Translations under genes and position numbers: made by a program | Notes under the pieces: generated by a model | The model's database searches: none | What the model was told of the DNA's origin: nothing | The model's input: only the letters and a program-made list of their open reading frames with translations | Source of the DNA: Chamaelirium japonicum | Lineage: Eukaryota; Streptophyta; Magnoliopsida; Liliales; Melanthiaceae | Assembly: GCA_947650365.1 (NCBI GenBank) | Contig: CANTAL010000025.1 | Span: 1,984,001-2,048,000 of the forward strand | Length of the DNA: 64,000 nucleotides | Reading direction: 5' to 3' | Part shown: one piece after another, positions 1 to 30,278 of the stretch | Layout: every line of letters starts with the position of its first letter | Position numbering within the stretch: the first letter of the stretch is position 1

Positions 1-2450
1 CATTCTAATCCATTCGTACGATCCATTCTAATTCATTCGCATGATCCATTCTAATTCATTCGTATGATCCATTCAAATTCATTCGCACGATCCATTCAAA
101 TTCATTCGCACGATCCATTCTAATTCATTCATACGATCCATTCTAATTCATTTGTATGATCCATTCTAATTCATTCGCACGAATGTATCCCTTCTAATTC
201 ATTCGCACGATCCATTCTAATTCATTCGTTCGATCCATTCTAATTCATTCGTACGATCCATTCAAATTCATTCGCATGATCCATTCTAATTCATGCGTAC
301 GATCCATTCTAATTCATTCACACGAATGTATCCATTCTAATTCATTCGCACAAATGTATCCATTCTAATTCATTCGTACGATCCATTCTTATTCATTCAT
401 ACGATCCATTCTAATTCATTTGCACGATCCATTCTAATTCATTCTCACAAATGTAACCTTTCTAATTTATTTGTACGATCCATTCTAATTCATTCGCACG
501 ATCCATTCTAATCCATTTGTACGATCCATTCTAATCCATTCGTACGATTCATTCTAATTCATTCGCACGAATTTAACCATTGTAATTCATTCGTACGATC
601 CATTCTAATTCATTCCTACGATCCATTCTAATTCAATCGCACGAATGTATCCATTCTTATTCATTTGCATGATCCATTCTAATTCATTCATACGATCCAT
701 TCTAATTCATTCGTACGATCCATTCTAATTCATTCGCACGATCCATTCTAATTCATTCGCACGATCCATTCTAATTCATTCGAACGATCCATTCTAATTC
801 ATTCGCACGAATGTATCCATTCTAATGCATTCGTACGATCCATTGTAATCCATTTGTACGATCCATTCTAATCCATTCTAATTCATTCGTACGATCCATT
901 CTAATTCGTTCATATGATCCATTCTAATTCGTTCGTACGATCCATTCTAATTCGTTCGTACGATCCATTCTAATTCATTCATACGATCCATTCTAATTCA
1001 TTCATACGATCCATTCTATTTTATTCGCTCGAATGTATCCATTCTAATTCATTCGTTCGATCCATTCTAATTCATTCGTACGATCCATTCAAATTCATTC
1101 TCACAAATGTAACCTTTCTAATTCATTTGTACGATCCATTCTAATTCATTCGTACAATCCATTCTTATTTATTCGTACGATCCATTCAAATTCATTCGCA
1201 TGTTCCATTCTAATTCATTCGTACGATCCATTCTAATTCATTCTCACGAATGTAACATTTCTAATTTATTTGTATGATCCATTCTAATTCATTCGCATGA
1301 TCTATTCTAATTCATTCGCACGATCCATTCTAATTCATTCGTCCGATCCATTCTAATTCATTCGCACGAATGTATCCATTCTATTTCATTCGTACGATCC
1401 ATTCAAATTCATTCGCACGATCCATTCTAATTCATTCGTAAGATCCATTCAAATTCATTCGCACGATCCATTCTAATTCATTCGTACGATCCATTCAAAT
1501 TTATTCGCACGATCCATTCTAATTCATTCGTATGATTCATTCTAATTCATTCGTACGATCCATTCTAATTCATTCGCACGAATGTAACCATTCTAATTCA
1601 TTCGTACGATCCATTCTAATTCATTCCTACGATCCATTCTAATTCATTCGCACGAATGTATCCATTCTAATTCATTTGCACGATCCATTCTAACTCATTC
1701 CGATGATCCATTCTAATTCATTCGTACGACCATCTAATTCATTCGCTCGAATGTATCCATTCTAATTCATTCGTACGATCCATTCTAATTCGTTCATACG
1801 ATCCATTCTAATTCGTTCGTACGATCCATTCTAATCCATTCGTACGATCCATTCTAATTCATTCTCACAAATGTAACCTTTCTAATTCATTTGGATGATC
1901 CATTCTAATTCATTCGTACGATCCATTCTAATCAATTCATACGATCCATTCTAAACCATTCTTACGATCCATTCTAATTCATTCGCACGAATGTAACCAT
2001 TCTAATTCATTCGTACGATCCATTCTAATTCATTCTCACAAATGTAACCTTTCTAATTCATTCGTACGATCCATTCTAATTCATTCGTACGATCCATTCT
2101 AATCCATTCGTACGATCCATTCTAATCCATTCGTACGATCCATTCTAATTCATTCGCATGAATTTAACCATTCTAATTCATTCGTACGATCCATTCTAAT
2201 TCATTCCTACGATCCATTCTAATTCATTCGCACGAATGTATCCATTCTAATTCATTTGCACGATCCATTCTAATTCATTCCTATGATCTATTCTAATTCA
2301 TTCGTAAGATCCATTCTAATTCATTCGCTCGAATGTATCCATTCTAATTCATTTGTACGTTTCATTCTAATTCATTCGCACGATCCATTCTAATTCATTC
2401 GTATGATCCATTCTTATTCATTCATACGATCCATTCTAATTCATTTGTAC
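1..2450 (+). repeat. Satellite block 1, forward
   Basis: Forward monomers. A 10-bp duplicated half-unit (CATTCTAATC before CATTCTAATT) lies at about 870-890. Monomers with TTCGTTC instead of TTCATTC cluster at about 905-960 and 1785-1830. A truncated monomer lies at about 1725-1740. The block ends on CATTTGTAC, immediately followed by GAATGAATTAG. Confidence 0.9.
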
Positions 2451-3265
2451 GAATGAATTAGAATGGATCGTACAAATGGATTAGAATGGATCGTACGAAT
2501 GAATTAAAATGGATCGTACGAACGAATTAGAATGGATCGTATGAACGAATTAGAATGGATCGTACGAATGAATTAGAATGGATACATTCGAGCGAATGAA
2601 TTAGATGGATCGTACGAATGAATTAGAATGGATCATCGGAATGAATTAGAATGGATCGTGCAAATGAATTAGAATGGATACATTCGTGCGAATGAATTAG
2701 AATGGATCGTAGGAATGAATTAGAATGGATCGTATGAATGAATTTGAATGGTTACATTCATGCGAATGGATTAGAATGGATCTTACGAATGGATTAGAAT
2801 GGATCGTGCGAATGAATTAGAATGGATCGTACAAATGAATTAGAAAGGTTACATTTGTGAGAATGAGTTAGAATGGATCGTACGAATGGATTAGAATGGA
2901 TCGTACGAATGGATTAGAATGGATCGTACGAATGAATTAGAATGGACCATACAAATGAATTAGAAAGGTAACATTCGTGAGAATGAATTAGAATGGATCG
3001 TACGTATGAATTAGAATGGATCATGCGAATGAATTTGAATGGATCGTACGAATGAATTAGAATGGATCGAACGAATGAATTAGAATGGATACATTCGAGC
3101 GAATGAATTAGAATAGATCGTAGGAATGAATTAGAATGGATCATACGAATGAATTAGAATGGATCGTGCGAATGAATTAGAATGGATTGTACGAATGAAT
3201 TAGAATGTATACATTCGTGCGAATGAATTAGAATGGATCGGACGAATGAATTAGAATGGATCGTA
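2451..3265 (-). repeat. Satellite block 2, reverse
   Basis: Reverse monomers begin at an inversion centred on GTAC 2447-2450. The 44-nt arms on either side match with about 5 mismatches. The block holds a copy of the higher-order module with an incidental open frame (2914-3144) and ends in GATCGTACGATTC, a second palindromic switch. Confidence 0.9.
2914..3144 (-). repeat. Higher-order module with incidental 76-codon open frame
   Basis: This run of 23- and 28-bp monomers reads open for 76 codons (starts MIHSNSF; periodic IHSNSFVRS). A pure 23-mer array meets TAA once per 69 nt in any frame. Here one TAA position is AAA (residues DPFKFIR) and two 28-mers shift the phase, so the frame stays open. 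The same monomer order recurs at 8923-9120, 13220-13417, 24937-25134, 26426-26623 and 33573-33770. No ribosome or promoter signal and no non-repeat sequence is present; I do not regard it as a gene. Confidence 0.85.
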
Positions 3266-4091
3266 CGATTCATTCTAATTCATTCATACGATCCATTCTA
3301 ATGCATTCGTACGATTCATTCTAATTCATTGGCACGATCCATTCTAACTCATTCGTATGATCCATTCTAATTTATTTGCACGAATATACGATCCATTCTA
3401 ATTTATTCGCTAGAATGTATCCATTCTAATTCATTCGTACAATACATTCTAATTTATTCGTACAAATGTGTCCATTCTAATTAATTGGTACGATCCATTC
3501 TAATTCATTCGTACGATTCATTCTAATTCATTCGTACGATCCATTCTAATTCATTCGTACGATCCATTCTAATTCATTCGCACGAATGTATCCATTCTAT
3601 TTAATTCGTACAATCCATTCTAATTTATTCATACGATCCATTCTAATTTATTCGTATGATCCATTCTAATTCATTCCTACGATCTATTTTAATTCATTCG
3701 CTCGAATGTATCCATTCTAATTCATTCGTACGATCCATTCTTATTCATTCGTACGATCCATTCTAATTCATTCGTATGATCAATTCTAATTCATTCGCAC
3801 GATCCATTCTAATTCATTCTCATGAATGTAACCTTTCTAATTCATTTGTATGATCCATTCTAATTCATTCGTACGATCCATTCTAATCCATTCGTACGAT
3901 CCATTCTAATCCATTCGTACGATCCATTCTAATTTATTCTCACAAATGTAACCTTTCTAATTCATTTGTACGATCCATTCTAATTCATTTGTACGATCCA
4001 TTCTAATCCATTCGTACGATCCATTCTAATCCATTCGTACGAATGTAACCATTCTAATTCATTTGTACGATCCATTCTAATTCATTCCTAC
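3266..4091 (+). repeat. Satellite block 3, forward
   Basis: Forward monomers with several divergent units near 3375-3480, including CGAATATACGATCC near 3380 and TTCGTACAA at 3434. Two dimers of the TCACRAATGTAACCTTTC type lie at about 3810-3850 and 3930-3970. The block ends at CATTCCTAC followed by GAATGAG. Confidence 0.88.
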
Positions 4092-5231
4092 GAATGAGTT
4101 AGAATGGATCATACGAATGAATTAGAATGGATCGTACAAATGAATTAGAATGGATCGAACGAATTAATTAGAATGGATACATTCGAGCGAATGAATTAGA
4201 ATAGATTGTAGGAATGAATTAGAATGGATCATACGAATGAATTAGAATGGATCGTGCGAATGAATTAGAATGGATTGTACGAATGAATTAGAATGGATAC
4301 ATTCGTGCGAATGAATTAGAATGGATCGGACTAATGAATTAGAATGGATCGTACGAATGAAGTAGAATGGATCGTGCGAATGAATTAGAATGAATCATAC
4401 AAATGCATTAGAATGGATACATTCGTGCGAATGAATTAGAATGGATCGTACGAATGATTTAGAATGGATCGTGCGAATGAATTCGAATGGATTGTACGAA
4501 TGAATTAGAATGAATCGTGCGAATGAATTAGAATAGATCGTACGAATGAATTAGAATAGATACATTCGAGCGAATGAATTAGAATGGATCGTACGAATGA
4601 ATCAGAATGGATAATAGGAATGAATTAGAATGGATCATGCAAATGAATTAGAATGGATCGTACAAATGGATTAGAATGGATCATACGAATGAATTAGAAT
4701 GGATCATACAAATGAATTAGAAAGGTTACATTCGTGAGAATGAATTAGAATGGATCGTGCCAATGAATTAGATTGGATCGTGCGAATGAATTAGAATGGA
4801 TCGTACGAACGAATTAGAATGGATCGTACGAACGAATTAGAATGAATCGTATGAACAAATTAGAATGGATCGTACGAATGAATTAGAATTGAAACATTCG
4901 ACCGAATGAATTAGAATGGATCGTACGAATGAATTAGAATGGATCATAGGAATGAATTAGAATAGATCGTGCAAATGAATTATAATGGATACATTCGTGC
5001 GAATGAATTAGAATGGATCGTAGGAATGAGTTAGAATGGATCGTACGAATGAATTAGAATGGTTACATTCGTGCGAATGAATTAGAATGGATCGTACGAA
5101 TGAATTAGAATGGATCGTATGAATGAATAAGAATGGATCGTACGAATGAATTAGAATGGATCCTGCGAATGAATTAGAATGAATCGTACGAACGCATTAG
5201 AATGGATCATACGAATGAATTAGAATGAATC
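4092..5231 (-). repeat. Satellite block 4, reverse
   Basis: Reverse monomers. Units with GAACGAATTAG (the TTCGTTC subfamily in reverse) lie at about 4805-4860. The block ends at AATCGTATGATCC, a CpG-decayed form of the palindromic switch. Confidence 0.88.
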
Positions 5232-7853
5232 GTATGATCCGTTCTAATTCATTCGTCCGATCCTTTCTAATTCATTCGCACGAATGTATCCATTCTAATT
5301 CATTCGTACAATCCATTTTAATTCATTCGCACGATCCATTCTAATTCATTCGTATGATCCATTCTAATTCATTCCTACGATCTATTCTAATTCATTCGTT
5401 CGAATGTATCCATTCTAATTCATTCGTTCGATCCATTCTAATTCATTCGTACGATCCATTCTAATTCATTCGTACGATCCATTCTAATGTATCCATTCTA
5501 ATTCATTCGTACGATCCATTCTAATTCATTCTCACGAATGTAACCTTTCTAATTCATTTGTATGATCCATTCTAATTCATTCGTACGATCCATTCAAATC
5601 CATTCATACGATCTATTCTAATGTATTCGTACGATCCATTCTAATTCGTTCTCACAAATGTAACCTTTCTAATTCATTTGTACGATCCATTCTAATCCAT
5701 TCGTACGATCCATTCTAATCCATTCGTACGATCCATTCTAATTCATTCGCACGAATATAACCATTCTAATTCATTCGTACGATCCATTCTAATTCATTCG
5801 CACGAATGTATCCATTCTAATTTGTTTACACGATCCATTCTAATTCATTCCTATGATCCATTCTAATTCATTCGTACGATCTATTCTAATTCATTTGCTC
5901 GAATGTATCTATTCTAATTCATTCGTACGATCTATTCTAATTCATTCGTACGATCCATTCTAACCATTCGTACGATCCATTCTAATTCATTCGTACAATG
6001 CATTCTAATCCATTCGTACGATCCATTCTAATCCATTCGTACGATCCATTCTAATTCATTTGTACGAATGGATCCATTCTAATTCATTAGTACGATCCAT
6101 TCTAATTCATTCTTACATTCCATTCTAATTCATTCCCACGAGTGTATCCAATCTAATTCATTCGCACAATCCATTCTAATTCATTCATACGATCCATTCT
6201 AATTCATTCGTATGATCCATTCTAACTCATTCGGTTGATCCATTCTAATTCATTCGTACGATCCATTCTAATTCATTCGCACGATCCATTCTAATTTATT
6301 CGTACGATCCATTCTAATTCATTCGTACGATCTATTCTAATTCATTCGCATGATCCATTCTAATTCATTCGTACGATCCATTCTAATTCATTCGTACAAT
6401 CCATTCAAATTCATTCGTACGATACAATCTAATTCATTCGCACAAATGTATCTATTCTAATTCATTCGTACAATGCGTTCTAATCCATTCATACGATCCA
6501 TTCTAATCCATTCGTACGATCCATTCTTATTCATTCGCACGAATGTAACCATTCTAATTCATTCATATGATCCATTCTAATTCATTCGTACGATCCATTC
6601 TAATTCATTCGTCCGATCCATTCTAATTCATTCGCATGAATGTATCCATTCTAATTCATTCATACGATCCATTCTAATTAATTTACACGATCCATTCTAA
6701 TTCAGTCGTATGAATGTATCCATTTTAATTCATTCGTACGATCCATTCTAATTCATTCGTACGATCTAATTCATTCGTACGATCCATTCTAATTCATTCG
6801 TACGATCGACTCTAATTCATTCGCACGATCCATTCTAATTCATTCGTCTGATCCATTCTAATTCATTCGTATGATCCATTCTAATTTATTCGTTCAAATA
6901 TATCTATTCTAATTCATTCGTACGATCCATTCTAATTCATTCCCACGATCCATTCTAATTCATTCGTACGATCCATTCTAATTCATTTGTACGATCCATT
7001 CTAATTTATTCGTATAATCCATTCTAATTCAGTCGTATGAATGTATCCATTTTAATTCATTCGTACGATCCATTCTAATTCATTCGTACGATCTAATTCA
7101 TTCGTACGATCCATTCTAATTCATTCATACGATCGATTCTAATTCATTCGCACGATCCATTCTAATTTATTCGTACGATCTATTCTAATTCATTCGTATG
7201 ATCCATTCTAATTTATTCGTTCAAATATATCCATTCTAATTCATTCGTACGATCCATTCTAATTCATTCGCACGATCCATTCTAATTCATTCGTATGATC
7301 CATTCTAATTCATTCATATGATCAATTCTAATTCATTCGCACGATCCATTCTAATTCATTTGTATGATCTATTCTAATTAATTCATACGATCCATTCTAA
7401 TTCATTCGCACGAATGTATCCATTCTAATTCATTCGTACGATCCATTCTAATTCATTCGCACTATCCATTCTAATTCATTCGTACGATCCATTCTAATTC
7501 ATTCGTACGATCTATTCAAATTAATTCGCACAAATATATCCATTCTAATTCATTCGTACGATCTATTCTAATTCAGTCGTATAATCCATTCTAATTCATT
7601 CGCACAAATGTATACATTTTAATTTATTCATACGATCCATTCTAATTTAATCATACGATCCATTCTAATTTATTCGCACGATCCATTCTAATTCATTCGT
7701 ACGATCCATTCTAATTAATTCGCATGAATATATCTATTATAATTCATTCGTATGATCCATTCTAATTTATTCGCATGATCTATTCTAATTCATTCATACG
7801 ATCCATTCTAATTTATTCGTACGATCCATTCTAATTCATTCGCACGAATGTAT
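5232..7853 (+). repeat. Satellite block 5, forward
   Basis: Forward monomers, one of the longer forward runs. A local duplication of about 320 bp is visible: the marker AGTCGTATGAATG followed by TATCCATTTTAATT occurs near 6705 and again near 7033, with similar monomers after each. A short monomer (ACGATCTAATTC) follows both copies. The block ends CGAATGTATCATACGAATG near 7853. Confidence 0.87.
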
Positions 7854-9241
7854 CATACGAATGAATTAGAATGGATCATGCGAATGAATTAAAATGGATC
7901 GTACAAATGAATTAGAATGGATCGTGCGAATGAATTAGAATGGACCGTACGAACGAATTAGAATGGATCGTACGAACGAATTAGAATGGATCGTACGAAT
8001 GAATTAGAACGGATACATTCGAGCGAATGAATTAGAATTGATCGTAGGAATGAATTAGAATGGATCATAGGAATGAATTAGAATGGATCGTGCAAATGAA
8101 TTAGAATGGATACATTCGTGCGAATGAATTAGAATCGATCATAGGAATAAATTAGAATGGATCGTACGAATGAATTAGAATGGTTACATTCGTGCGAATG
8201 AATTAGAATGGATCGTACGAATGGATTAGAATGGATCGTACGAATGGATTAGAATGGATCGTACGAATGAATTAGAAAGGGTATATTTGTGAGAATGAAT
8301 AAGAATGGATCATACGAATGAATTAAAATGGATCGTACGAATGGATTAGAATGGATACATTTGTGAGAATGAATTAGAATGGATCATACGAATGAATTAG
8401 AATGGATCGTAGGAATGTATTAGAATGGATCATACTAATGGATCGTACGAATGAATTAGAAAGGTTATATTCGTAAGAATGAATTAGATTGGATCGTACG
8501 AATGAATTAGACTGGATCATGCGAATGAATTTGAATGGATCGTACGAATGAATTAGAATGGATACATTCGAGCGAATGAATTAGAATAGATCGTAGGAAT
8601 GAATTAGAATGGATCATACGAATGAATTAGAATGGATCGTAGGAATGAATTAGAATAGATCGTAGGAATGAATTAGAATGGATCATACGAATGAATTTGA
8701 ATGGTTACATTCGTGTGAATGATTTAGAATGGATCGTACGATTGGATTAGAATGGATCGTACGAATGGATTAGAATGGATCGTACGAATGAATTAGAATG
8801 GATCGTACAAATGAATTAGAAAGGTTACATTTGTGAGAATGAGTTAGAATGGATCGTACGAATGGATTAGAATGGATCATACGAATGGATTAGAATGGAT
8901 CGTACGAATGAATTAGAATGGATCATACAAATGAATTAGAAAGGTTACATTTATAAGAATGAATTAGAATGGATCGTACGAATGAATTAGAATGGATCAT
9001 GCGAATGAATTTGAATGGATCGTACGAATGAATTAGAATGGATCGAACGAATGAATTAGAATGGATACATTCGAGCGAAAGAATTAGAATAGACCATAGG
9101 AATGAATTAGAATGGATCATACGAATGAATTAGAATGGATCGTGCGAATGAATTAGAATGGATTGTACGAATGAATTAGAATGGATACATTCGTGCGAAT
9201 GAATTAGAATGGATCGGACGAATGAATTAGAATGGATCGTA
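7854..9241 (-). repeat. Satellite block 6, reverse
   Basis: Reverse monomers, with a truncated unit CATACTAATGGATC near 8430-8445. Module copy 8923-9120 lies inside. The block ends at GGATCGTACGATTC, the same palindromic switch as at 3265. Confidence 0.88.
8923..9120 (-). repeat. Higher-order module with incidental 65-codon open frame
   Basis: Same monomer order as 2914-3144, differing by scattered substitutions (for example residues WSILIL early in the frame and SYKCN near the end). Both copies lie a few hundred bases before a GATCGTACGATTC switch, so block 2 and block 6 probably descend from one ancestral segment. Confidence 0.82.
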
Positions 9242-10411
9242 CGATTCATTCTAATTCATTCGTACGATCCATTCTAATGCATTCGTACGATTCATTCTAA
9301 TTCATTCGCACGATCCATTCTAATTCATTCGTACGATCCATTCTAAATCATTCGCACGATCCATTCTAATTCATTCGTACGATCCATTCTAATTTATTCG
9401 CACGAATGTAACCATTCTAATTCATTCGTATGATCTATTCTAATTCATTCCTACGATCCATTCTAATTCATTCGCACGAATGTATCCATTCAAATTCATT
9501 TGCACGATCCATTCTAATTCATTCCTATGATCCATTCTAATTCATTCGTACAATCCATTCTAATTCATTCGCTAGAATGTATCCATTCTAATTCATTCGT
9601 ACGATCCATTCTAATTCGTTCCTACGATCCATCCTAATTCGTTGATATGATCCATTCTAATTCGTTCGTACGATCCATTCTAATTCATTCGCATGATCCA
9701 TTATAATTCATTCGCACGATCCATTCTAATCCATTCTCACGATTGTAACCTTTCTAATTCATTTGTATGATCCATTCTAATTTATTCATACGACCCATTC
9801 TAATCCATTCGTACGATCCATTCTAATTCATTTGCACGATCCATTCTAATTCATTCCTATGATCCATTCTAATTCATTTGTACGATCCATTCTAATTCAT
9901 TCGCTCGAATGTATCCATTCTAATTCATTCGTACGATCCATTCTAATTCATTCGTATGATCCATTCTAATTCATTCTCACGAATATAACCTTTCTAATTC
10001 ATTTGTATGTATCCATTCTAATTCATTCGCACGATCCATTCTAATTCATTCGTACGATCCACTCTAATTCATTCGCACGATCCATTCTAATTCATTCGTA
10101 CGATCCATTCTAATTCATTCGCACGAATGTATCCATTATAATGCATTTGTACGATTCATTCTAATTCATTCGCACGATCCATTCTAATTCATTTGTACGA
10201 TCCATTCTAATTCATTCATCCGATCCATTCTAATTCATTCGCACGAATGTATCCATTCTAATTCATTCGTACAATCCATTCTAATTCATTCGCATGATCC
10301 ATTCTAATTTATTCGTATGATCCAATCTAATTCATTCCTACGATCTATTCTAATTCATTCGCTCGAATGTATCCATTCTAATTCATTTGTACGATCCATT
10401 CTAATTCATTC
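9242..10411 (+). repeat. Satellite block 7, forward
   Basis: Forward monomers. TTCGTTC-type units occur near 9615-9680, with one divergent TTCGTTGATATG. The block ends in TTCATTCATTAGAATGG, a switch that is not centred on the GTAC palindrome. Confidence 0.87.
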
Positions 10412-11021
10412 ATTAGAATGGATCGTACGAATGAATTAGAAAGGTTACATTTGTGAGAATGAATTAGAATGGATCGTACGAATGAATTAGAATGGATCGT
10501 ACGAATGGATTAGAATGGATCGTACGAATGGATTAGAATGGATCGTACGAATGAATTAGAATGGATCATACAAATGAATTAGAAAGGTTACATTCGTGAG
10601 AATGAATTAGAATGGATCGTGCGAATGAATTAGAATTGATCATACGAATGAATTAGAGTGGATCGTACGAATGTATAAGAATGGATCGTACGAATGAATT
10701 AGAATGGATACATTCGAGCGAATGAATTAGAATAGATCGTAGGAATGAATTAGACTGGATTATATGAATGAATTAGAAAGGATCATATGAATGAATTAGA
10801 ATGGATCGTACGAATTAATTAGAATGGATACATTCGTGCGAATGAATTAGAATGGATCGTATGAATGAATTAGAATGGATCGTACGAATAAATTAGAATG
10901 AATCATACGAATGAATTAGAATGGATCGTTCGAATGAATTAGAATGGATCATACGAATAAATTCGAATGGATCGTGTGAATGAATTAGAATGAATCGTAC
11001 GAATGCATTAGAATGGATCGT
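10412..11021 (-). repeat. Satellite block 8, reverse
   Basis: Reverse monomers with a TAACCTTTC-type dimer in reverse at about 10440 and again at about 10575. The block ends at GGATCGTACGATCC, an exact palindromic switch. Confidence 0.87.
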
Positions 11022-12530
11022 ACGATCCATTCTAATTCATTCGCACGATCCATTCTAATTCATTCGTATGATCAATTCTAATTCATTCGCACGATCCATT
11101 CTAATTCATTCATATGATCCATTCTAATTCATTCGTACGATCCATTCTAATTCATTCATATGATCCATTCTAATTCATTCGCACGAATGTATCCATTCTA
11201 ATTAATTCGTATGATCCATTCTAATTTATTCGTTCGATCCATTCTAATTCATTCGTATGATCCAGTCTAATTCATTCCTACGATCTATTCTAATTCGTTC
11301 GCTCGAATGTATCCATTCTAATTCATTCGTACGATCCATTCTTATTCATTCGTACGATCCACTCTAATTCATTCGTATGATCAATTCTAATTCATTCATA
11401 CGATCCATTCTAATTCATTCATACGATCCATTCTAATTCATTCATACGATCCATTCTAATTCATTCGCACGAATGTATCCATTCTAATTAATTTGTATGA
11501 TCCATTCTAATTCATTCATACGATCCATTCTAATTCATTCGTATGATCCATTCTAATTCATTCCTACGATCTATTCTAATTCATTCGCTCGAAAGTATCC
11601 ATTCTAATTCATTCGTCCGATCCATTCTTATTCATTCGTACGATCCATTCTAATTCATTCGTATGATCAATTCTAATTCATTCGCATGATCCATTCTAAT
11701 TCATTCTCACGAATGTAACCTTTCTAATTCATTTGTATGATCCATTCTAATTCATTCGTACGATCCATTCTAATCCATTCGTACGATTCATTCTAATCCA
11801 TTCGTACGATCCATTCTAATGCATTCCTACGATCCATTCTAATTCATTCTCACAAATGTAACCTTTCTAATTCATTTGTACAATCCATTCTAATTCATTC
11901 ATACGATCCATTCTAATTCATTCGTACGATCCATTCTAATTCATTCGTATGATCCATTCTAATTCATTCGTTCGATCCATTCTAATTCATTCGCACGAAT
12001 ATATCCATTCTAATTCATTCATACGATCCATTCTAATTCGTTCGTACGATCCATTCTAATTCGTTCGCATGAATATATCTATTCTAATTCATTCGTATGA
12101 TCCATTCAAATTCATTCGTACGATCCATTCAAATTCATTCATATAATCCATTCAAATTCATTCGTACGATGCAATCTAATTCATTCGCACAAATGTATCT
12201 ATTCTAATTCATTCGTACAATGCGTTCTAATCCATTCATACGATCCATTCTAATCTATTCGTACAATCCATTCTAATTCATTCGCACGAATGTAACCATT
12301 CTAATTCATTCATTTGATCCATTCTAATTCATTCGTATGATCCATTCTAATTCATTCATATGATCCATTCTAATTCATTCGTATGATCCATTCTAACTCA
12401 TTCGTAGGAAGTACGATCCATTCTAATCCATTCGTACGATCCATTCTAATTCATTCGTACAATGCGTTCTAATCCATTCGTACTATCCATTCTAATTCAT
12501 TCGTACGATCCATTCTAATTCATTTGTACG
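11022..12530 (+). repeat. Satellite block 9, forward
   Basis: Forward monomers. A local duplication of about 280-300 bp is suggested by repeated GATCCATTC..CCTACGATCTATTC units followed by a GCTCGAA-type 28-mer, near 11275-11300 and 11560-11590. A compressed monomer (TTCGTAGGAAGTACGATCC) lies near 12405. The block ends CATTTGTAC|GAATG. Confidence 0.86.
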
Positions 12531-12984
12531 AATGAATTAGAATGGATCATACGAATGTATTAGAATAGATCGTACGAATGAATTAGAATAGATCGTACGA
12601 ATGAATTAGAATGGATACATTCGAGCGAATGAATTAGAATGGATCGTAGAAATAAATTAGAATGGATACATTTGTGCAAATGAATTAGAATGGATCGTAC
12701 AAATGAATTAGAATGGATCACGCGAATGAATTTGAATGGATCGTATGAATGAATTAGAATGGATCGAAGGAATGAATTAGAATGGATACAATCGAGCGAA
12801 TGAATTAGAATTGATCGTAGGAATGTATTAGAATGGATTATTCGAATGAATTAGAATGGATCATGCGAATGAATTAGAATGGATTGTACGAATGAATTAG
12901 AATTAATACATTCATGCGAATGAATTAGAATGGATCGTACGAATGGATTAGAATGGATCGTACGAATGAATTAGAATGGTTACA
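12531..12984 (-). repeat. Satellite block 10, reverse
   Basis: Short reverse block between a palindromic switch at its left end and GGTTACATTCATTCTAATTC at its right end, where the switch falls in the 28-mer tail. Confidence 0.86.
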
Positions 12985-14324
12985 TTCATTCTAATTCATT
13001 CGTACAATCCATTCTAATTTATTCGTACAAATGTATCCATTCTAATTCATTCGTATAATCCATTCTAATTCATTCGTACGATTCATTCCAATTCATTCGT
13101 ACGATCCATTCTAATTCATTCGTACGATCCATTCTAATTCATTCGCACGAATGTATCCATTCTAATTCATTTGTACAATCAATTCTAATTCATTCGCACG
13201 ATCCATTCTATTCATTCGTATGATCCATTCTAATTCATTCCTACGATCTATTCTAATTTATTCGCTCGAATGTATCCATTCTAATTCTTTCGTTCGATCC
13301 ATTCTAATTCATTCGTACGATCCATTCAAATTCATTCGCATGATCCATTCTAATTCATTCGTACGATCCATTCTAATTCATTCTCACGAATGTAACCTTT
13401 CTAATTCATTTGTATGATCCATTCTAATTCATTCATACGATCCATTCTAATACATTCAAACGATCCATTGTAATTCATTCATACAATCCATTCAGATTCA
13501 TTCGCACAAATGTATCCATTCAAATTCATTCGTACGATCCATTATAATTAATTCGCACGATCCATTCTAATTCAGTCATATGAATGTATCCATTTTAATT
13601 CATTCGTACGATCCATTCTAATTCATATGATCCATTCTAATCCATTCGTACGATCCATTCTAATTCATTCGTATAATCCATTCTAATTCATTCGCATGAA
13701 TGTAACCGTTCTAATCCATTCCTACGATCCATTCTAATTCATTCGCATGAATGTATCCATTCTAATTCATTTGCACGAAGCATTCTAATTCATTCCTATG
13801 ATCCATTCTAACTCATTCGTACGATCCATTCTAATTCATTCACTCGAATGTATCCATTCTAATTCATTCATACGATCCATTCTAATTCATTCGTACGATC
13901 CATTCTAATTCGTTCGTACGATCCATTCTAATTCATTCGTACGATCCATTCTAATTCATTCGTATGATCAATTCTAATTCATTCGCACGATCCATTCTAA
14001 TACATTCGTACGATCCATTCTAATTCATTCGCTCGAATGTAACCATTCTAATTCATTCGTACGATCCATTCTAATTCATTCCTACGATCCATTCTAATTC
14101 ATTCGCACGAATGTATCCATTCTAATTCATTTGCACGATCCATTCTAATTCATTCCTATGATCCATTCTAATTCATTCGTACGATCCATTCTAATTCATT
14201 CGCTCGAATGTTTCCATTCTAATTCATTCGTACGATTCATTCTAATTCATTCGCATGATCCATTCTAATTCATTCGTACGATCCATTCTTATTCATTCAT
14301 ACAATCCATTCTAATTCATTTGTA
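12985..14324 (+). repeat. Satellite block 11, forward
   Basis: Forward monomers including module copy 13220-13417. It also holds a copy of a second marker module (CATTGTAATTC, CATTCAGATTC, AGTCRTATGAATG) at about 13460-13600 and a truncated unit ATTCATATGATCC near 13622. The block ends CATTTGTAC|AAATG. Confidence 0.87.
13220..13417 (+). repeat. Higher-order module with incidental 65-codon open frame
   Basis: Forward copy of the 2914-3144 module. The same peptide frame is open on the opposite genomic strand, which shows that the frame travels with the repeat and not with a fixed locus. Confidence 0.82.
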
Positions 14325-15043
14325 CAAATGAATTAGAATGGATCGTACGAATGGATTAGAATGGATCGTACGAATGAATTAGAATGGATCGTACGAACGA
14401 ATTAGAATGGATCGTATGAACGAATTAGAATGAATCGTACGAATGAATTAGAATGGATACATTCGAGCGAATGAATTAGAATGGATCGTGCGAATGAATT
14501 AGAATGGTTACATTCGTGAGAATGAATTACAATGGATCGTACGAATGAATTAGAATGGATCGTACGAATGAATTAGAATGGATCGTACGAATGAATTAGA
14601 AAGGTTACATTTGTGAGAATGAATTACAATGGATCGTACGAATGAATTAGAATGGATCGTATGAATGGATTAGAATTGATCGTACGAATGGATTAGAATG
14701 GATCGTATGAATGAATTAGAATGGATCATACAAATGAATTAGAAAGGTTACATTAGTGAGAATGAATTAAAATGGACCGTACGAATGAATTAGAATGGAT
14801 CAGGTGAGTGAATTTGCATGGATCGTACGAATGAATTAGAATGGATCGAACGAATGAATTAGAATGGATACATTCGAGTGAATGAATTAGAATAGATCGT
14901 AGGAATCAATTAGAATGGATCATATGAATGAATTAGAATGGATCGTGCGAATGAATTTGATTGGATTGTACGAATGAATTAGAATGGATACATTCGTGCG
15001 AATGAATTAGAATGGACCGGACAAATGAATTAGAATGGATCGT
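14325..15043 (-). repeat. Satellite block 12, reverse
   Basis: Reverse monomers. A module related to 2914-3144 lies at about 14710-14920, but its frame is broken by substitutions (for example GATCAGGTGAGTG near 14795). The block ends GGATCGTACGATTC. Confidence 0.86.
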
Positions 15044-15453
15044 ACGATTCTTTCTAATTCATTCGTACGATCCATTCTAATGCATTCGTACGATTCATTC
15101 TAATTCATTCGCACGATCCATTCTAATTCATTCGTATGATCCATTCTAATTTATTTGCACGAATATACGATCCATTCTAATTTATTCGCAAGAATGTATC
15201 CATTCTAATTCAATCGTACAATCCATTCTAATTTATTCGTACAAATATATCCATTCTAATTCATTTGTACGATCCATTCTAATTCATTCGTACGATTCAT
15301 TCTAATTCATTCGCACGATCCATTCTAATTCATTTGTACAATCCATTCTAATTCATTCGCACGAATGTATCCATTCTAATTCATTCGTACAATCCATTCT
15401 AATTCATTCGCACGATCCATTCTAACTCATTCGTATGATCCATTCTAATTCTT
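15044..15453 (+). repeat. Satellite block 13, forward
   Basis: Short forward block, opening with a divergent TCTTTCTAATTC unit and closing at TTCTTTTAATGAATTAG, a switch in the AT-rich half of the monomer and not at GTAC. Confidence 0.85.
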
Positions 15454-15526
15454 TTAATGAATTAGAATAGATACATTCGTGCGAATGAATTAGAATGGAT
15501 CGGACGAATGAATTAGAATGGATCGT
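15454..15526 (-). repeat. Satellite block 14, reverse (73-bp flip)
   Basis: A three-monomer reverse insert between two forward blocks, bounded by CTTTTAATGAATTAG on the left and GGATCGTACGATTC on the right. It is one of the smallest inversions in the window. Confidence 0.84.
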
Positions 15527-16002
15527 ACGATTCATTCTAATTCGTTCGTACGATCCATTCTAATTCATTCGTATGATCCATTCTAACTCATTCGGTGGGT
15601 CCATTCTAATTCATTCGTACGATCCATTCTAATTCATTCGCACTATCCATTCTAACTCATTCGCATGATCCATTCTAATTCATTCGTACGATCCATTCTA
15701 ATTCATTCGCACGAATGTATCCATTCTAATTTATTTGTACAATCCATTCTAATTCATTTGTACAATGCGTTCTAATCCATTTGTACGATCCATTCTAATT
15801 TATTCCTATGATCCATTCTAATTCATTCGTACGATTCATTCTAATTCATTCGCTCGAATGTATCCATTCAAATTTATTCGTACGATCCATTCTAATTCAT
15901 TCATACAATCCATTCTAATTCGTTCGTACGAATGTATCCATTCTAATTCATTCGCACGATCCATTCTAATCCATTCGTACGATCCATTCTAATTCATTCG
16001 TA
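15527..16002 (+). repeat. Satellite block 15, forward
   Basis: Forward monomers including a GGTGG-type unit (CATTCGGTGGGTCC) near 15590. The block ends CATTCGTAC|AAATG. Confidence 0.85.
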
Positions 16003-16517
16003 CAAATGAATTAGAATGGATCGTATGAATGAATAAGAATGGATCGTACGAATGAATTAGAATGGATCGTGCGAATGAATTAGAATGAATCGTACGAATA
16101 CATTAGAATGGATACATTCGTGCGAATGAATTAGAATGGATCGTACGAATGAATTAGAATGGATCATACAAATGAATTAGAAAGGTTACATTCGTGAGAA
16201 TGAATTAGAATGGATCGTACGAATGAATTAGAATGGATCACGCGAATAAATTTGAACGGATCATACAAATGAATTAGAATGGATCGAACGAATGAATTAG
16301 AATGGATACATTCGAGCGAATGAATTAGAATGGATCGTATGAATGAATTAGAATGGATCGTGCGAATGAATTAGAATGGATCGTACGAATGGATTAGAAT
16401 GGATCGTACGAATGGATTAGAATGGATCGTACGAATGGATTAGAATGGATCGTGCGAATGAATTTGAATAGATCGTACGAATGAATTAGAATGGATCGTG
16501 CGAATGAATTAGAATGA
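16003..16517 (-). repeat. Satellite block 16, reverse
   Basis: Reverse monomers. The block ends GAATGAATCCATTC, a switch sharing only a few bases between the two directions. Confidence 0.85.
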
Positions 16518-17248
16518 ATCCATTCTAATTCATTCGCACGAATGTATCCATTCTAATGCATTCGTACGATCCATTCTTATTCATTCATACGATCCATTCT
16601 AATTCATTTGCACAATCCATTCTAATTCATTCGTACGATCCATTCTAATTCATTCGTATGATGCATTCTAACTCATTCGGTGGATCCATTCTAATTCATT
16701 CGTACGATCCATTTTAATTCATTCGCACGATCCATTCTTATTTATTCGTACGATCCATTCTAATTCATTCGTACGATCTATTCTAATTCATTCGAACGAA
16801 TGTAACCATTATAATTCATTCATACGATTCATTCAAATTCATTCGTATGAGCTATTCTAATTCATTCGTACGATCCATTCTAATTCATTCGTACGATCCA
16901 TTGTAATTCATTCATACAATCCATTCAGATTGCTTCGCACAAATGTATCCATTCAATATCATTCGTACGATCCATTCTAATTAATTCACACGATCCATTC
17001 TAATTCAGTCGTATGAATGTATCCATTTTAATTCATTCGTACGATCCATTCTAATTCATTCGTACGATCTAAATCATTTGTACGATCCATTCTAATTCTT
17101 TCGCACGAATGTATTCATTCTAATTCATTTGCACGATCCATTCTAATTCATTCGTACGATCCATTCTTATTCATTCATACGATCCATTCTAATTCATTCG
17201 CACAATCCATTCTAATTCATTCGTACGATTTCATTCTAATTCATTTGT
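16518..17248 (+). repeat. Satellite block 17, forward
   Basis: Forward monomers with a GGTGG unit at 16679-16683, followed by the CATTGTAATTC/CATTCAGATTG marker module at about 16905-16940 and AGTCGTATGAATG near 17007. The block ends CATTTGTAC|GAATG. Confidence 0.86.
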
Positions 17249-18077
17249 ACGAATGAATTATAATGGATCGTACGAATGGATTAGAATAGATCGTATGAAT
17301 GAATTAGAATGGATCGTACGAACGAATTAGAATGGTTCGTATGAACGAATTAGAATGGATCGTACGGATGAATTAGAATGTATACATTCGAGCGAATGAA
17401 TTAGAATGGATCGTACGAATGAATTAGAATGGATCGTACGAATAAATTAGAATGAATCGTACGAATGAATTAGAATGGATTGTACGAATGAATTCGAATG
17501 GATCGTACGAATGAATTAGAATGTATCGTACGAATGAATTAGAATGGATCGTGCGAATGAATTAGAATGGATCGTACGAAAGAAATAGAATCGTTCATAC
17601 GAATGAATTAGAAATGATCATACGAATGAATTAGAATCGATCGTGCGAATGAATCAGAATGGATCGTACGAATGAATTAGAATGGATACATTTGTGCGAT
17701 GAATAAGAATAGAGCATACGAATGAATTAGAATGGAGCATACGAATGAACTAGAATGGATACATTCGTGCGAATGAATTAGAATGGATCATATGAAAGAA
17801 TTAGAATGGATCGTGCGAATGAATTAGAATGGATCGTGCGAATGAATTAGAATGGATCGTACGAACGAATTAGAATGGATCGTACGAACGAATTAGAATG
17901 GATCATATGAACAAATTAGAATGTATCGTACGAATAAATTAGAATGGATCGAACGAATGAATTAGAATGGATTGTGCGAATGAATAAGAATGGATCGTAT
18001 AAATGAATAAGAATTGATCGTATGAATGAATTAGAATGGATCGTGCAAATGAATTAGAATGGATACATTCGTGCAAA
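17249..18077 (-). repeat. Satellite block 18, reverse
   Basis: Reverse monomers. A distinctive pair, GCGATGAATAAGAATAGAGC then GAATGGAGCATACG, lies near 17695-17740 and recurs at about 36275 and 55485. The block ends GCAAATGATCCATTC. Confidence 0.86.
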
Positions 18078-20442
18078 TGATCCATTCTAATTCATTCGTA
18101 CGATCCATTCTAATTCATTCCTACGATCCATTCTAATTCATTCGCAGGAATGTATCCATTCTAATTAATTCGTACGATCCATTCTAATTCATTCGTATGA
18201 TCCATTCTTATTCATTCGCACGATCCAGTCTAATTGATTCGCACGATCCATTCTAATTCATTCGCACGATCCATTCTAATTTATTCGTACGATCCATTCT
18301 AATTCATTCGTACGATCTATTCTAATTCATTCGCACGAATGTAACCATTCGAATTCATTCGTACGATTCATTCTAATTCATTCGTATGAGCTATTCTAAT
18401 TCATTCGTACGATCCATTCTAATTCATTCGTACGATCCATTGTAATTCATTCATACAATCCATTCAGATTCATTCGCACAAATGTATCCATTCAAATTCA
18501 TTCGTACGATCCATTCTAATTCAGTCGTATGAATGTATCTATTTTAATTCATTCGTACGATCCATTCTAATTCATTCGTACGATCTAATTCATTCGTACG
18601 ATCCATTCTAATTCATTCGTACGATCGATTCTAATTCATTCGTACGATCGATTCTAATTCATTCGCACGATCCATTCTAATTCATTCATACAATCCATTC
18701 AGATTCATTCGCACAAATGTATCCATTCAAATTCATTCGTACGATCCATTCTAATTCATTCGTATGATCCATTCTAATTCATTCGTACGATCCATTCCAT
18801 TCGCACGATCTATTCTAATTTCTTCGTACGATCCATTCTAATTTATTCGTACGATCCATTCTAATTCATTCGCTCGAATGTATCCATTCTAATTCATTCG
18901 TATGATCCATTCTAATTCATTCGTGTGATCCATTCTAATCCATTAGTATGATCAATTCTAATTCATTCGCACGATCCATTCTAATTCATTCTCACGAATG
19001 TAACCTTTCTAATTCATTTGTATGATCCATTCTAATTCATTCGTACGATCCATTCTAATCCATTCGTACGATCCATTCTAATCCATTCGTACCATCCATT
19101 CTAATCCATTCGTACGATCCATTCTAATTCATTCGCTCGAATGTATCCATTCGAATTCATTCGTACAATCCATTCTAATCCATCCGTACGATCCATTCTA
19201 AACCATTCGTACTATCCATTCTAATTCATTCGCATGAATGTAACCATTCTAATTCATTCATACGATCCATTCTAATTCATTCCTACGATCCATTCTAATT
19301 CATTCGTATGATCAATTCTAATTCATTCGCACGATCCATTCTAATTCATTCGTACGATCCATTCTAATTCATTCGCACGAATGTAACCATTCTAATTCAT
19401 TCGTACGATCTATTCTAATTCATTCGCATCATACATTCTAATTCATTCGCACAAATGTGACTATTCTAATTCATTCGGTGGATCCATTCTAATTCATTCG
19501 TATGATCCATTCTAATTCATTCTCACGAATGTAACCTTTCTAATTCATTTATATGATCCATTCTAATTCATTCGTACGATCCATTCTAATCCATTCGTAC
19601 GATCCATTCTAATCCATTCGTACGATCCATTCTAATCCATTCGTACGATCCATACTAATCCATTCGTACGATCCATTCTAATTCATTCTTTCGAATGTAT
19701 GCATTTTAATTCATTCGTACGATCCATTCTAATTCATTCGTACGATCCATTCTAATCCATTCGTACGATCCATTCTAATTCATTCATACAATGCGTTCTA
19801 ATCCATTCGTACGATCCATTCTAATTCATTCGTACGATCCATTCTAATTTATTTGTACGATCCATTCTAATTCATTCATACGATCCATTCTAATTCATTC
19901 GTACGATCCATTCTAATCCATTCTAATTCATTTACTAGAGTGTATCCATTTTAATTCATTCATACAATCCATTCTTATTCATTCATACGATCCATTCTAA
20001 TTCATTCGCACGATCCATTCTAATCCATTCGTACGATCCATTATAATTCATTCGTACGATCCATTCAAATTCATTTGCATGATCCATTCAAATTCATTCG
20101 CACGATCCATTCTAATTCGTTCGTATGATCCATTCTAATTCATTCGTACGATCCATTCTAATTCATTTGTACGAATGGATCCATTCTAATTTATTAGTAC
20201 GATCCATTCTAATTCATTCTTACATTCCATTCTAATTCATTCGCACGAATGTATCTATTCTAATTCATTCGCACAATCCATTCTAATTCATTCGTACGAT
20301 CCATTCTAATCCATTCGTACGATCCATTCTAATCCATTCGTACGATCCATTCTAATTCATATGCACAAAGGTATCCATTCTATTTGTTTCGTACGATCTA
20401 TTCTAATTCATTCGCTCGAATGTATCCATTCTAATTCATTCG
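18078..20442 (+). repeat. Satellite block 19, forward
   Basis: Long forward block. The CATTCAGATTC marker appears twice, near 18464 and 18695, so a segment of about 230 bp was duplicated locally. A GGTGG unit lies near 19473. The block ends CATTCGTTAGAATGG, a non-GTAC switch. Confidence 0.86.
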
Positions 20443-20774
20443 TTAGAATGGATACATTCGTGCGAATGAATTAGAATGGATCATACGAATGAATTAGAAT
20501 GGATCGTGCAAATGAATTAGAATTGATCATAAGAATTAATTAGAATAGATCGTACGAATGAATTAGAATGGATCGTACGAATGAATTTGAATGGATACAT
20601 TCGTGTGAATGAATTAGAATGGATCGTACGAATGGATTAGAATGGATCGTACGAATGGATTAGAACGCATTGTACGAATGAATTAGAATAGATACAATTT
20701 GGCGAATGAATTAGATTGCATCGTACGAATGAATTTGAATGGATTGTACGAATGAATTAGAATCGATATATTTG
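20443..20774 (-). repeat. Satellite block 20, reverse
   Basis: Short reverse block. It includes units with GAACGCATTGTACG and GATTGCATCGTACG, seen also near 25315-25375 and 37805-37870. The block ends GATATATTTGAATGTATCC, inside a 28-mer. Confidence 0.84.
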
Positions 20775-22129
20775 AATGTATCCATTCTAAATCGTTCGTA
20801 CGATTCATTCATTCGTATGAGCTATTCTAATTCATTCGTATGATCCATTCTAATTCATTCGCACGATCCATTCTAATCCATTCGTACGATCGATTCTAAT
20901 TCATTCGTACAATGCGTTCTAATCCATTCGTACGATCCATTCTAATTCATTCGTACGATCCATTCTAATTCATTTGTACGAATAGATCCATTCTAATTCT
21001 TTAGTACAATCCATTCTAATTCATTCTTACATTCCATTCTAATTCATTCACACGAATGTATCCATTCTAATTCATTTGCACAATCCATTCTAATTCATTC
21101 GTACGATCCATTCTAATCCATTCGTACGATCCATTCTAATCCATTCATACGATCCATTCTAATTCATTCGCACGAATGTAACCATTCTAATTCATTCGTA
21201 CGATCCATTCTAATTCATTCCTATGATCCATTCTAATTCATTCGCACGAATGTATCCATTCTAATTCATTTGTATGATCCATTGTAATTCATTCGTACGA
21301 TCCATTCTAATTCACTCGCACGATCCATTCTAATTCATTCGTATGATCCATTCTAATTCATTCGTACGATCCATTCTAATTCATTTGCATGAATGTATCG
21401 ATTCTAATTCATTCGTACGATCCATTCCAATTCATTTGTATGATCCATTCTAATTCATTCATGCAATCCATTCTAATTCAATCATACGATCCATTCTAAC
21501 TCATTCTCACAAATGTAACCTTTCTAATTCATTTGTACGATCCATTCAAATTCATTCGTACGATCTATTCTAATTCATTCGCTCGAATGTATCCATTCTA
21601 ATTCATTCGTACGATCCATTTTAGTTCATTCGCACGAATGTAACCATTCTAATTCATTCGTACGATCCATTCTAATTCATTCATACAATCCATTCTAATT
21701 CATTCGCACGAATGTATCCATTCTAATTCATTCGTACGATCCATTCTAATCCATTCGTACGATCCATTCTAATCCATTTGTACTTTCCAATCTAATTCAT
21801 TCTCACAAATGTAACCTTTCTAATTCATTTGTACGATCCATTCTAATTCATTCGTACGATCCATTCTAATCCATTCGTACGATCCATTTTAATTCATTCC
21901 AACGATCAATTCTAATCCATTCGTACGATCCATTCTAATCCATTCGTACGATCCATTCTAATTCATTCGCACGAATGTAACCATTCTAATTCATTCGTAC
22001 GATCCATTCTAATTCATTCCTACGATCCATTCTAATTCATTCGCACGAATGTATCCATTCTAATTCATTTGCACGATCCATTCTAATTCATTCCTATGAT
22101 CCATTCTAATTCATTCCTATGATACATTC
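20775..22129 (+). repeat. Satellite block 21, forward
   Basis: Forward monomers opening with a compressed unit (CGTTCGTACGATTCATTCATTCG) and containing several 28-mers. The block ends CCTATGATACATTCGAATGACTG, where extra bases lie at the switch. Confidence 0.84.
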
Positions 22130-22291
22130 GAATGACTGAATTAGAATGGATTGTACGAATGAATTAGAATGAATCATACGAATGCATTAGAATGGATCGT
22201 ACGAATGAATTAGAATGGATCATACGAATGAATTAGAATGGATCGTACGAATGAATTAGAATGGATCGTGCGAATGAATTAGATTGCATCG
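22130..22291 (-). repeat. Satellite block 22, reverse (162-bp flip)
   Basis: About seven reverse monomers. The left switch resembles the one near 32815 (GATACATTC then GACTGAATTAGAATGG in both), so the two are likely copies of a single event. The right end is GCATCGTACGATCC. Confidence 0.84.
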
Positions 22292-24073
22292 TACGATCCA
22301 TTCAAATTCATTCGTACGATGCAATCTAATTCATTCGCACAAATGTATCTATTCTAATTCATTCGTACAATGCGTTCTAATCCATTCGTACGATCCATTC
22401 TAATCCATTCATACGATCCATTCTAATTCATTCGTATGATCCATTCTAATTCATTCGTACCATCCATTCTAATTCATTTGCATAAATGTTTCCATTCTAA
22501 TTCATTCGTACGATCCATTCTAATTCATTCGCACGATCCATTCTAATTCATTCGCACGAATGTATCCATTCTAATTCATTTGCACGATCCATTCTAATTC
22601 ATTCCTATGATCCATTCTAATTCATTCGTACGATCCATTCTAATTCATTCGTCCGATCCATTCAAATTCATTCGTACGATGCAATCTAATTCATTTGCAC
22701 AAATGTATCTGTTCTAATTCATTCGTCCGATCCATTCTAATTCATTCGTATGATCCATTCTAATTCATTCGTACGATCCATTCTAATTCATTTGCATGAA
22801 TGTATCCATTCTAATTCATTTGTACAATCCATTCTAATTCATTCGCACGATCCATTCTAATTTATTCGTATGATCCATTCTAATTTATTCCTATGATCCA
22901 TTCTAATTCATTCGTTCGATACATTCTAATTCATTCGTACGATCCATTCAAATTCATTCGCATGATCCATTCTAATTCATTCGTACGATCCATTCTAATT
23001 CATTCTCACGAATGTAACCTTTCTAATTAATTTGTATGATCCATTCTAATTCATTCGTACGATCCATTCTAATCCATTCGTACGATCCATTCTAATCCAT
23101 TCGTAAGATCCATTCTAATTCATTCGTACGATCCATTCTAATTCATTCTCACAAATGTAACCTTTCTAATTCATGTGTACGATCCATTCTAATTCATTCG
23201 TACGATCCATTCTAATTCATTTGCACAAATGTATCCATTCTAATTCATTCGTACGAATTATTCTAATTCATTCGCACGATCCATTCTAATTCATTCATAC
23301 GATCCATTCTAATTTATTCGCACAATCCATTCTAATTCATTCGTACGATCCATTCTAATTCATTCGCACGAATGTATCCATTCTAATGCATTCGTACGAT
23401 CCATTCTAATTCATTCATACGATCCATTCTAATCCATTCGTACGATCCATTCTAATTCATTCGTACGATCCATTCTATTTCATTCTCACAAAGGTAACCT
23501 TTCTAATTCATTTGTACGATCCATTCTAATTCATTCGTACGATCCATTCTAATCCATTCGTACGATCCATTCTAATCCATTCGTACGATCCATTCTAATT
23601 CATTCGCACGAATGTAACCATTCTAATTCATTTGTACGATCCATTCTAATTCATTCGCACGAATGTATCCATTCTAATTCATTTGCACGATCCATTCTAA
23701 TTCATTCCTATGATCCATTCTAATTCATTCATACGATCCATTCTAATTCATTCGTACAATCCATTCTAATTCATTCGTACGATCCATTCTAATCCATTCG
23801 TACGATCCAATCTAATTCATTCGTACAATGCATTCTAATCCATTCGTACAATCCTTTCTAATTCATTCGTATGATCCATTCTAATTCATTTATACGATTG
23901 GATTCATTCTAATTCATTAGTACGATCCATTCTAATTCAATCTTACATTCCATTCTAATTCATTTGCACGAATGTATCCATTCTAATTCATTCGCACAAT
24001 CCATTCTAATTCATTCGTACGATCCATTCTAATTCATTCGTATGATCCATTCTAACTCATTCGCACGAATGTA
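22292..24073 (+). repeat. Satellite block 23, forward
   Basis: Forward monomers. The marker ACGATGCAATC followed by a CACAAATGTATCTRTTC 28-mer occurs at about 22315 and 22675, a local repeat of about 365 bp. The block ends CGAATGTACCATACGAATG. Confidence 0.86.
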
Positions 24074-25660: not shown

Positions 25661-26425
25661 ACGATCCATTCTAATTCATTCGCTCGAATGTATCCATTCT
25701 AATTCATTCATACGATCCATTCTAATTCATTCATACGATTCCTTCTAATTCGTTCGCACGATCCATTCTAATTCATTCGTACGATCTATTCTAATTCATT
25801 CGCATGATCCATTCTAATTCATTCGTACGATCCATTCTAATTCATTCGTACAATCCATTCAAATTCATTCGTACGATGTAATCTAATTCATTCGCACAAA
25901 TGTATCTATTCTAATTCATTCGTACAATACGTTCAAATCCATTCGTACGATCCATTCTAATCCATTCGTACGATCCATTCTAATTCATTCGCACGAATGT
26001 AACCATTCTAATTCATTCGTTCGATCCATTCTAATTCATTCGTACGATCCATTCTAATTTATTTGCATGATCCATTCGAATTCATTCCTATGATCCATTC
26101 TAATTCATTCGTACGATCCATTCTAATTCATTCGTTCGAATGTATCCATTCTAATTCATTCGTACAATCCATTCTAATTCATTCGTACGATCCATTCTAA
26201 TTCATTCGCACAAATGTATCCATTCTAATTCATTCGTACGATCCATTCTAATTCATTCGCACAAATGTATCCATTCTAATTTATTCGTTCGATCCATTCT
26301 AATTCATTCGCATAAATATATCCATTCCTCGATCCATTCTAATTCATTCGCACGAATGTATCCATTCTAATTCATTAGTACAATCCATTCTAATTCATTC
26401 GCACGATCCATTCTAATTCATTTGT

Positions 26426-30273: not shown

Positions 30274-30278
30274 TAACC
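30274..30278. repeat. Target-site duplication, left (TAACC)
   Basis: TAACC precedes the TG of the solo LTR and is repeated exactly at 31493-31497. Removing the LTR and one copy restores an intact 28-bp monomer (AAATGTAACC then ATTCTAATTC). Confidence 0.95.

Follow-up and report, generated by a model that had tools for sequence, protein, structure and literature searches.

The closest described system to the DNA analysed here is the pair of centromere repeats Chio1 and Chio2 of Chionographis japonica, for which NCBI uses the name Chamaelirium japonicum. These have monomers of 23 and 28 bp, lie in arrays of mixed forward and reverse orientation, and contain a conserved 8-bp dyad for which a hairpin between monomers is predicted (PMC10264360). 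Chio is bound by CENH3, and either microhomology-mediated gene conversion or circle integration has been proposed for the growth of its arrays (PMC10264360). That published account already covers the mixed orientation, the dyad, the predicted hairpin and the role at the centromere; the portions of it compared here do not examine at which monomer positions orientation switches, which bases are shared at junctions, or how junctions group into families.

Four other systems provide points of comparison. First, the Chama satellite of Chamaelirium luteum is also centromeric and has TTCGTACGA in common with Chio, but its monomer is 60 bp long, its orientation is reported to be consistent, and its higher-order structure extends over several hundred kb (PMC12722358); its authors propose hairpins, breaks and ectopic recombination. 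Secondly, orientation changes within arrays are described for the mouse minor and major satellites, where they are read as rearrangements such as inversions, although they concern 1.7% of MiSats and 1.9% of MaSats (PMC10880262), whereas Chio has about 1.1 switches per kb. Thirdly, fold-back inverted duplications also have inverted junctions, whose boundary carries short inverted matches (PMC3907307); they differ in having a spacer and a mirrored flank, which we looked for in Chio and did not find. Lastly, polymerase-theta end joining and templated inverted insertions resemble what may happen in Chio in their priming by a short stem-loop or microhomology and in their short inverted inserts, but the yeast inserts, of about 5–34 bp, are described as fold-back products (PMC11292364, PMC11724301).

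Composition of the satellite array

The window is the whole stretch of 64,000 nucleotides analysed, C37:1984001-2048000, in a host genome of 1,518,659,071 bases and 3,253 contigs. Segmentation with a hidden Markov model (HMM) resolves it into a tandem array in which the 23-mer CATTCTAATTCATTCGTACGATC is mixed with the 28-mer CATTCTAATTCATTCGCACGAATGTATC and the orientation alternates (Table 1). This is almost certainly the Chio centromere satellite of C. japonica, a holocentric lilioid. Monomers of 23 and 28 bp are both present, the 23-mer lacking 5 bp and having one substitution (a match to the published description rather than to the published full letters); TTCGTACGA and the 8-bp dyad are present in the monomer CATTCTAATTCATTCGTACGATC; and forward and reverse arrays are mixed. 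Genome-wide there are 585,529 forward and 581,198 reverse monomer 32-mers, and a rough extrapolation puts the satellite at 291 Mb, or 19% of the 1.519-Gb genome; the published share of Chio is 16.11% (PMC10264360).

The two monomers differ at the palindrome. TCGTACGA is intact in 40.5% of 8,304 23-mers as compared to 1.7% of 1,484 28-mers, and at the corresponding place the 28-mer has an enlarged near-palindrome, CATTCG-CA-CGAATG. The 28-mer itself could be an old, short snap-back product.

The array is interrupted by a 1.2-kb LTR-like insert (30279-31492) that starts with TGTTGGGGG and ends with CCCGAACA, with TAACC at both flanks when inspected by eye; it looks like a solo LTR inserted in a 28-mer. 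At the right end (63421-64000) the satellite stops abruptly, and LTR-like sequence (TGTGGGGGAAAATC...) starts within a reversed monomer. On contig C1 the satellite lies, among the matches listed, in separate blocks at about 1.36–3.17, 10.3–10.6, 17.1–18.4 and 135 Mb, as expected for a holocentromere built of a few units.

Table 1. Satellite segments, example junctions and higher-order blocks in the window (F->R, forward to reverse; R->F, reverse to forward).
Positions	Feature	Basis
1..30278	Chio-type satellite, 23-mer CATTCTAATTCATTCGTACGATC and 28-mer CATTCTAATTCATTCGCACGAATGTATC, alternating orientation	HMM segmentation
2442..2455	F->R junction CATTTGTACGAATG, axis on TCGTACGA	switch called at 2450, axis 10
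3258..3271	R->F junction GGATCGTACGATTC, axis 10	switch called at 3265, letters
7843..7860	Contrast: off-palindrome F->R junction, axis 0	switch called at 7852
11015..11028	R->F junction, perfect GGATCGTACGATCC	HMM and string list
12521..12534	F->R junction CATTTGTACGAATG, axis 10	HMM and string list
14317..14330	F->R junction CATTTGTACAAATG, axis 10	HMM and string list
31487..63420	Chio-type satellite, right-hand part, alternating orientation	HMM segmentation
36029..36042	F->R junction CATTCGTACGAATG, axis 10	HMM and string list
44813..49569	Higher-order block, unit of ~2.1 kb x3, flip series repeated	HMM and copy comparison
52185..53792	Block, palindrome-centred flip pair x3, ~0.7 kb apart; copies 1 and 2 90–91% identical	HMM and copy comparison
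56773..56786	R->F junction, perfect GGATCGTACGATCC	HMM and string list

Distribution of orientation switches

Switches were called with a two-orientation HMM of the 23-mer and the 28-mer, with uniform switch probabilities and no preference for switch position. Each switch is described by its mirror axis, the sum of the two phases modulo 23, which is independent of where the switch is drawn within a shared stretch; axis 10 of the 23 is the centre of TCGTACGA. The window contains 33 F->R and 32 R->F switches, with 16 and 14 of these, respectively, on axis 10. By comparison, when real satellite segments were joined at random in silico 5,880 times, the model detected 5,890 switches, of which 5,872 lay no more than 15 bp from a true join, and the distribution of axes was flat; axis 10 takes 4.3% of F->R and 4.7% of R->F switches (about 4.5%). 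An earlier, sequence-only reading of the window had placed about 14 of about 33 F->R switches, and a similar share of R->F switches, on the palindrome; the counts bear this out, and all 22 palindrome switches that it had located (12 F->R and 10 R->F) fall within 4 bp of an axis-10 switch. Its wording that flips occur exactly on the palindrome holds as a strong bias but not as a rule, since over half of the window switches are on other axes (17/33 F->R and 18/32 R->F).

The string CATTYGTACRAATG was rejected as a flip counter, because flips and 28-mers are both counted among its 87,512 matches in the genome. There are 27 copies in the window, 11 at flips and 16 representing the 28-mer or a variant in unflipped array (by eye), and in the window together with 17 other loci 22 of 64 copies are no more than 12 bp away from an F->R switch. 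R->F flips through the longer palindrome of the 28-mer, which would read GGATACATTCG..CGAATGTATCC, number zero in the window and these 17 loci.

To enlarge the sample, 25 further loci containing satellite were taken from C37 and nine additional contigs; eight of these loci (L001-L008) were fetched by motif and are biased, and 17 of 28 other stretches fetched had enough satellite for use. Raw counts in the 25 loci place axis 0 above axis 10 among F->R switches (24 versus 17 of 98), and axis 9 above axis 10 among R->F switches (33 versus 28 of 100). With the motif-fetched loci left out, the switch density is about 1.1 per kb and the median run length 0.5–0.7 kb.

Junction families

Within the block at 44813..49569 there are four flips in each of copies 1 and 2, which are 97.7% identical, and three in copy 3. 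Because the unit of about 2.1 kb repeats its flip series, these flips were copied after their origin, and the earlier remark that the same switches recur in higher-order copies is correct. The set of 263 junctions was reduced to 258 by removing four physical duplicates of overlapping loci and one junction with a short flank, and families were formed by single linkage, with the cut-off at the 95th percentile of the similarities that unrelated pseudo-junctions show to one another. This yields 96 families, a figure that over-merges because of the single linkage at that percentile, and 20 of them are on axis 10 (p 9e-9 versus 4.5%); axes 0, 9 and 18 have 13, 10 and 9 families. At a 99.9% threshold there are 144 families, with 37 on axis 10. 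The motif-fetched loci are part of the 96-family figures, and are excluded from the family sets marked as such and from the switch densities.

The preference is also present in each of the subsets. In the window, with copies collapsed at the most aggressive threshold, 10 of 31 families are on axis 10 (6/14 F->R and 4/17 R->F), so that the offsets, tabulated against random placement, retain an excess over about 4.5% once copies are collapsed. Without the window and the motif-fetched loci the count is 18 of 74 families, and without the rest of C37 as well it is 14 of 64. The palindrome bias is thus real and general, and weaker than the raw counts of the window.

A few founding flips followed by massive copying could also generate a palindrome excess, through luck in which junctions were amplified. 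Copying has been extensive, with 17 of the 96 families occurring on more than one contig and holding 155 of the 258 junctions, in line with the earlier suggestion that some junctions are copies of one event; the largest two axis-10 families have 29 and 26 members (21 of the 26 in the latter on axis 10), and singletons could be diverged copies. However, axis 10 keeps its 20 of 96 when each family is counted once at an over-merging threshold, and 14 of these 20 families are singletons, and we consider luck in copying a highly improbable source of the bias.

The junctions found on several contigs also bear on the caution, raised in the sequence-only reading, that assembly of inverted repeats may create false flips by collapse or mis-joining. 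C37 is 2.06 Mb long, far below chromosome-sized contigs, which would leave room for such errors, but recurrence of the same junctions on different contigs speaks against them, and the median run of 0.5–0.7 kb fits within one HiFi read, the usual length of which is greater. Mixed orientation is also reported for the published assembly, which was made with HiFi reads at 58.5x (PMC10264360), and we regard the chance that the flips are artefacts as very small.

Conservative inversion is a further way to flip part of an array, in which cutting or crossing over at two palindromes of one array turns the intervening piece in place. The palindromes are inverted repeats of each other, as this would require, and axis 10 is found at both ends of 12 of 116 reverse segments. 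Permutation, however, gives 10.1 such segments (p 0.27), and the same axis, whichever it is, occurs at both ends in 13 of the 116 versus 14.3 by permutation, a comparison that addresses clean inversion without end loss or later scrambling. Neighbouring R->F/F->R pairs have a common axis in 13 of 117 cases versus 13.4 by permutation. Clean inversion is unlikely because neighbouring junctions do not tend to have a common axis, conservative inversion was rejected on the same-axis comparison, and overall we hold it to be very unlikely.

Microhomology at the junctions

The mean number of bases shared at the join is 2.07 over the 96 families, as compared to 0.64 in simulated joins, and the excess is also present when the palindrome junctions are removed (1.47 versus 0.59, p = 3e-11). 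A fit to the off-palindrome junctions raises the odds of a join 1.78-fold per shared base. This exponential rule derives from data with 0–4 shared bases, and its extrapolation to 8 bp predicts 21.0% of families on axis 10, where 20/96 (20.8%) are observed. The number of families per axis follows the length of the self-inverse match in the 23-mer (Spearman 0.58 over 23 axes, and 0.52 without axis 10). At least five bases are shared in 9 of the 20 palindrome families versus 31 of 265 random axis-10 joins (p 2e-4), such that palindrome junctions favour intact palindromes. Much of the palindrome bias, or all of it, follows from a plain microhomology rule. The rule describes a tendency, because 26 of the 96 families have no shared base.

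Several features of the other junctions are of note. Axis 0 has its 13 families despite a 23-mer match of only 2 bp; in some of these, CATTCGTACGAATG lies beside a 10-bp phase shift, and they could be palindrome joins with a deletion. There are 246 phase jumps without a change of orientation, and among those of at least 9 bp the commonest is 13 bp (28 jumps), joining CATTC to CATTC; jumps of 1, 3, 5 and 8 bp are also common (50, 25, 26 and 21, respectively) and involve little homology. In one locus, L034, two 23-bp inverted inserts (at 2132 and 5266) lie 3.1 kb apart with identical letters around their right-hand junctions, and resemble one copied templated insertion.

A rival reading makes the palindrome a hot spot in its own right, more active than its match length would predict. 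A cruciform or hairpin prone to breakage might be responsible, for instance, or a centromere protein bound there, and joining by microhomology would come in addition. If the effect of microhomology saturates at 4, 5 or 6 bp, the predicted share of axis 10 falls to 7.8%, 9.8% or 12.4%, and the observed share exceeds prediction 1.7- to 2.7-fold; under exponential extrapolation there is no excess left to explain. TTCGTACGA is common to Chio and Chama, for which hairpins and breaks have been suggested (PMC12722358), but Chama has these same 9 bp and is reported to be consistently oriented, so that possession of the palindrome is not enough for flipping. It also counts against a hot spot that the 23-mers of the window have their lowest consensus frequencies inside the palindrome (0.78–0.83; positions 15, 16 and 18 from 0). 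Some of this variation consists of C->T and G->A changes at CpGs and some of T->C at position 16; the CpG changes (core positions 14–19 from 0) agree with published data on Chio, which describe high CpG methylation. We consider a dedicated hot spot possible though unlikely.

Tests for fold-back

The sequence-only reading had attributed the flips to hairpin-driven template switching or to fold-back repair of breaks, in which a strand would fold onto itself at TCGTACGA and take the adjacent sequence as its template, so that the arms become mirror images. The bias of the axes towards the palindrome would agree with this, as would the predicted hairpin between Chio monomers (PMC10264360) and the presence, among 223 interior runs, of 10 shorter than 60 bp, a length that templated insertions would also have. 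The long mirrored arms that had been noted are also present, with 2–9 ungapped mismatches over 50 nt at 22 of the 30 axis-10 junctions of the window, but unrelated arms in the same phase match much the same. Raw means over 50 bp are higher for a junction's own arms than for cross-paired arms (35.8 versus 32.9 for F->R, 41.0 versus 36.5 for R->F), and over 100 bp they are 0.652 versus 0.611 and 0.640 versus 0.639, respectively. We take the slightly higher raw values to reflect the weight of two large families. Counted per family over 100 bp (nine F->R and seven R->F representatives), own arms are no more alike than cross-family arms, at 0.594 versus 0.611 for F->R and 0.616 versus 0.639 for R->F, with 25 and 50 bp behaving likewise.

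Two further observations argue against fold-back. First, in the 60 of 96 families with sufficiently long locus and flanks, the first 120 bp of the flipped run had its own upstream sequence as best match (rank at most 0.05) in only 2 of the 60, with a mean rank of 0.455. Simulated fold-backs were recognised in 98, 98, 98 and 92% of cases at 5, 10, 15 and 20% divergence, the simulation having 1 kb of upstream sequence and the real upstream runs being as short as 300 bp. Secondly, flips with zero loop are nearly absent away from the palindrome. Of the mirror 14-mers that such flips would produce (23 F->R and 23 R->F are possible), each is present zero times or once in 209 kb outside four strings; these are CATTCGTACGAATG (29 copies, flips and 28-mers together) and GGATCGTACGATCC (10 copies) at TCGTACGA, and two containing GATC, namely CGTACGATCGTACG (four copies, a single string belonging to both the F->R and R->F lists) and GAATGGATCCATTC (three copies). 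Genome-wide there are 5,655 copies of GAATGGATCGTACGATCCATTC, as compared to 12 of the non-palindromic mirror TTCTAATATTAGAA and eight of its reversed control. The tests address copying of at least about 100 bp before a second switch. Fold-back inverted duplication was rejected, since at the family level the flipped arm is not a copy of the adjacent sequence, and we regard snap-back copying in general as improbable; the hairpin interpretation of the sequence-only reading is not upheld.

Origin and spread of the switches

The best reading of these data, to which we give a probability of roughly 0.6, is microhomology-guided joining of arrays of opposite polarity, followed by spread of the resulting junctions. 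The satellite arrays of the holocentromere would be cut and rejoined many times, with breaks or fork collapse probably starting the events. When two ends of opposite polarity meet, or when a stalled strand reaches a new template running the other way, they would be joined at a point of agreement over a few bases. Because the palindrome TCGTACGA reads the same on both strands, intact forward and reverse monomers share eight bases there, and it would be used most because it is the longest forward/reverse match in the monomer; the other axes, with shorter matches, would be used roughly as often as those match lengths predict. The pathway may be polymerase-theta alternative end joining, or a microhomology-primed switch to a non-adjacent template. 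The junctions would subsequently be copied, both locally as higher-order repeats and between chromosomes.

In the portions of PMC10264360 and PMC12722358 compared here, there is no account of switches being placed on the dyad, of a microhomology rule or of evidence that speaks against fold-back. We also speculate, although we think it distinctly unlikely, that TCGTACGA is an orientation-neutral splice point that two lineages, said to have split 23.5 million years ago, have both retained in their centromere satellites. In Chionographis it might additionally draw breaks, allowing arrays of either polarity to join and to spread to about 100 centromere units, in a holocentromere that keeps no strand direction.

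The hairpin account is replaced by a measurable rule, namely that the odds of a join climb with the number of shared bases. With 291 Mb of satellite and about 1.1 switches in each kb, the genome would offer, by rough extrapolation, a natural set of some 300,000 junctions for testing break-repair models of centromere growth. Chama, with the same palindrome and reportedly without alternation, provides together with Chio a contrast between two sister lineages. The orientation switches of Chio would then reflect an ordinary repair rule in a remarkable centromere.
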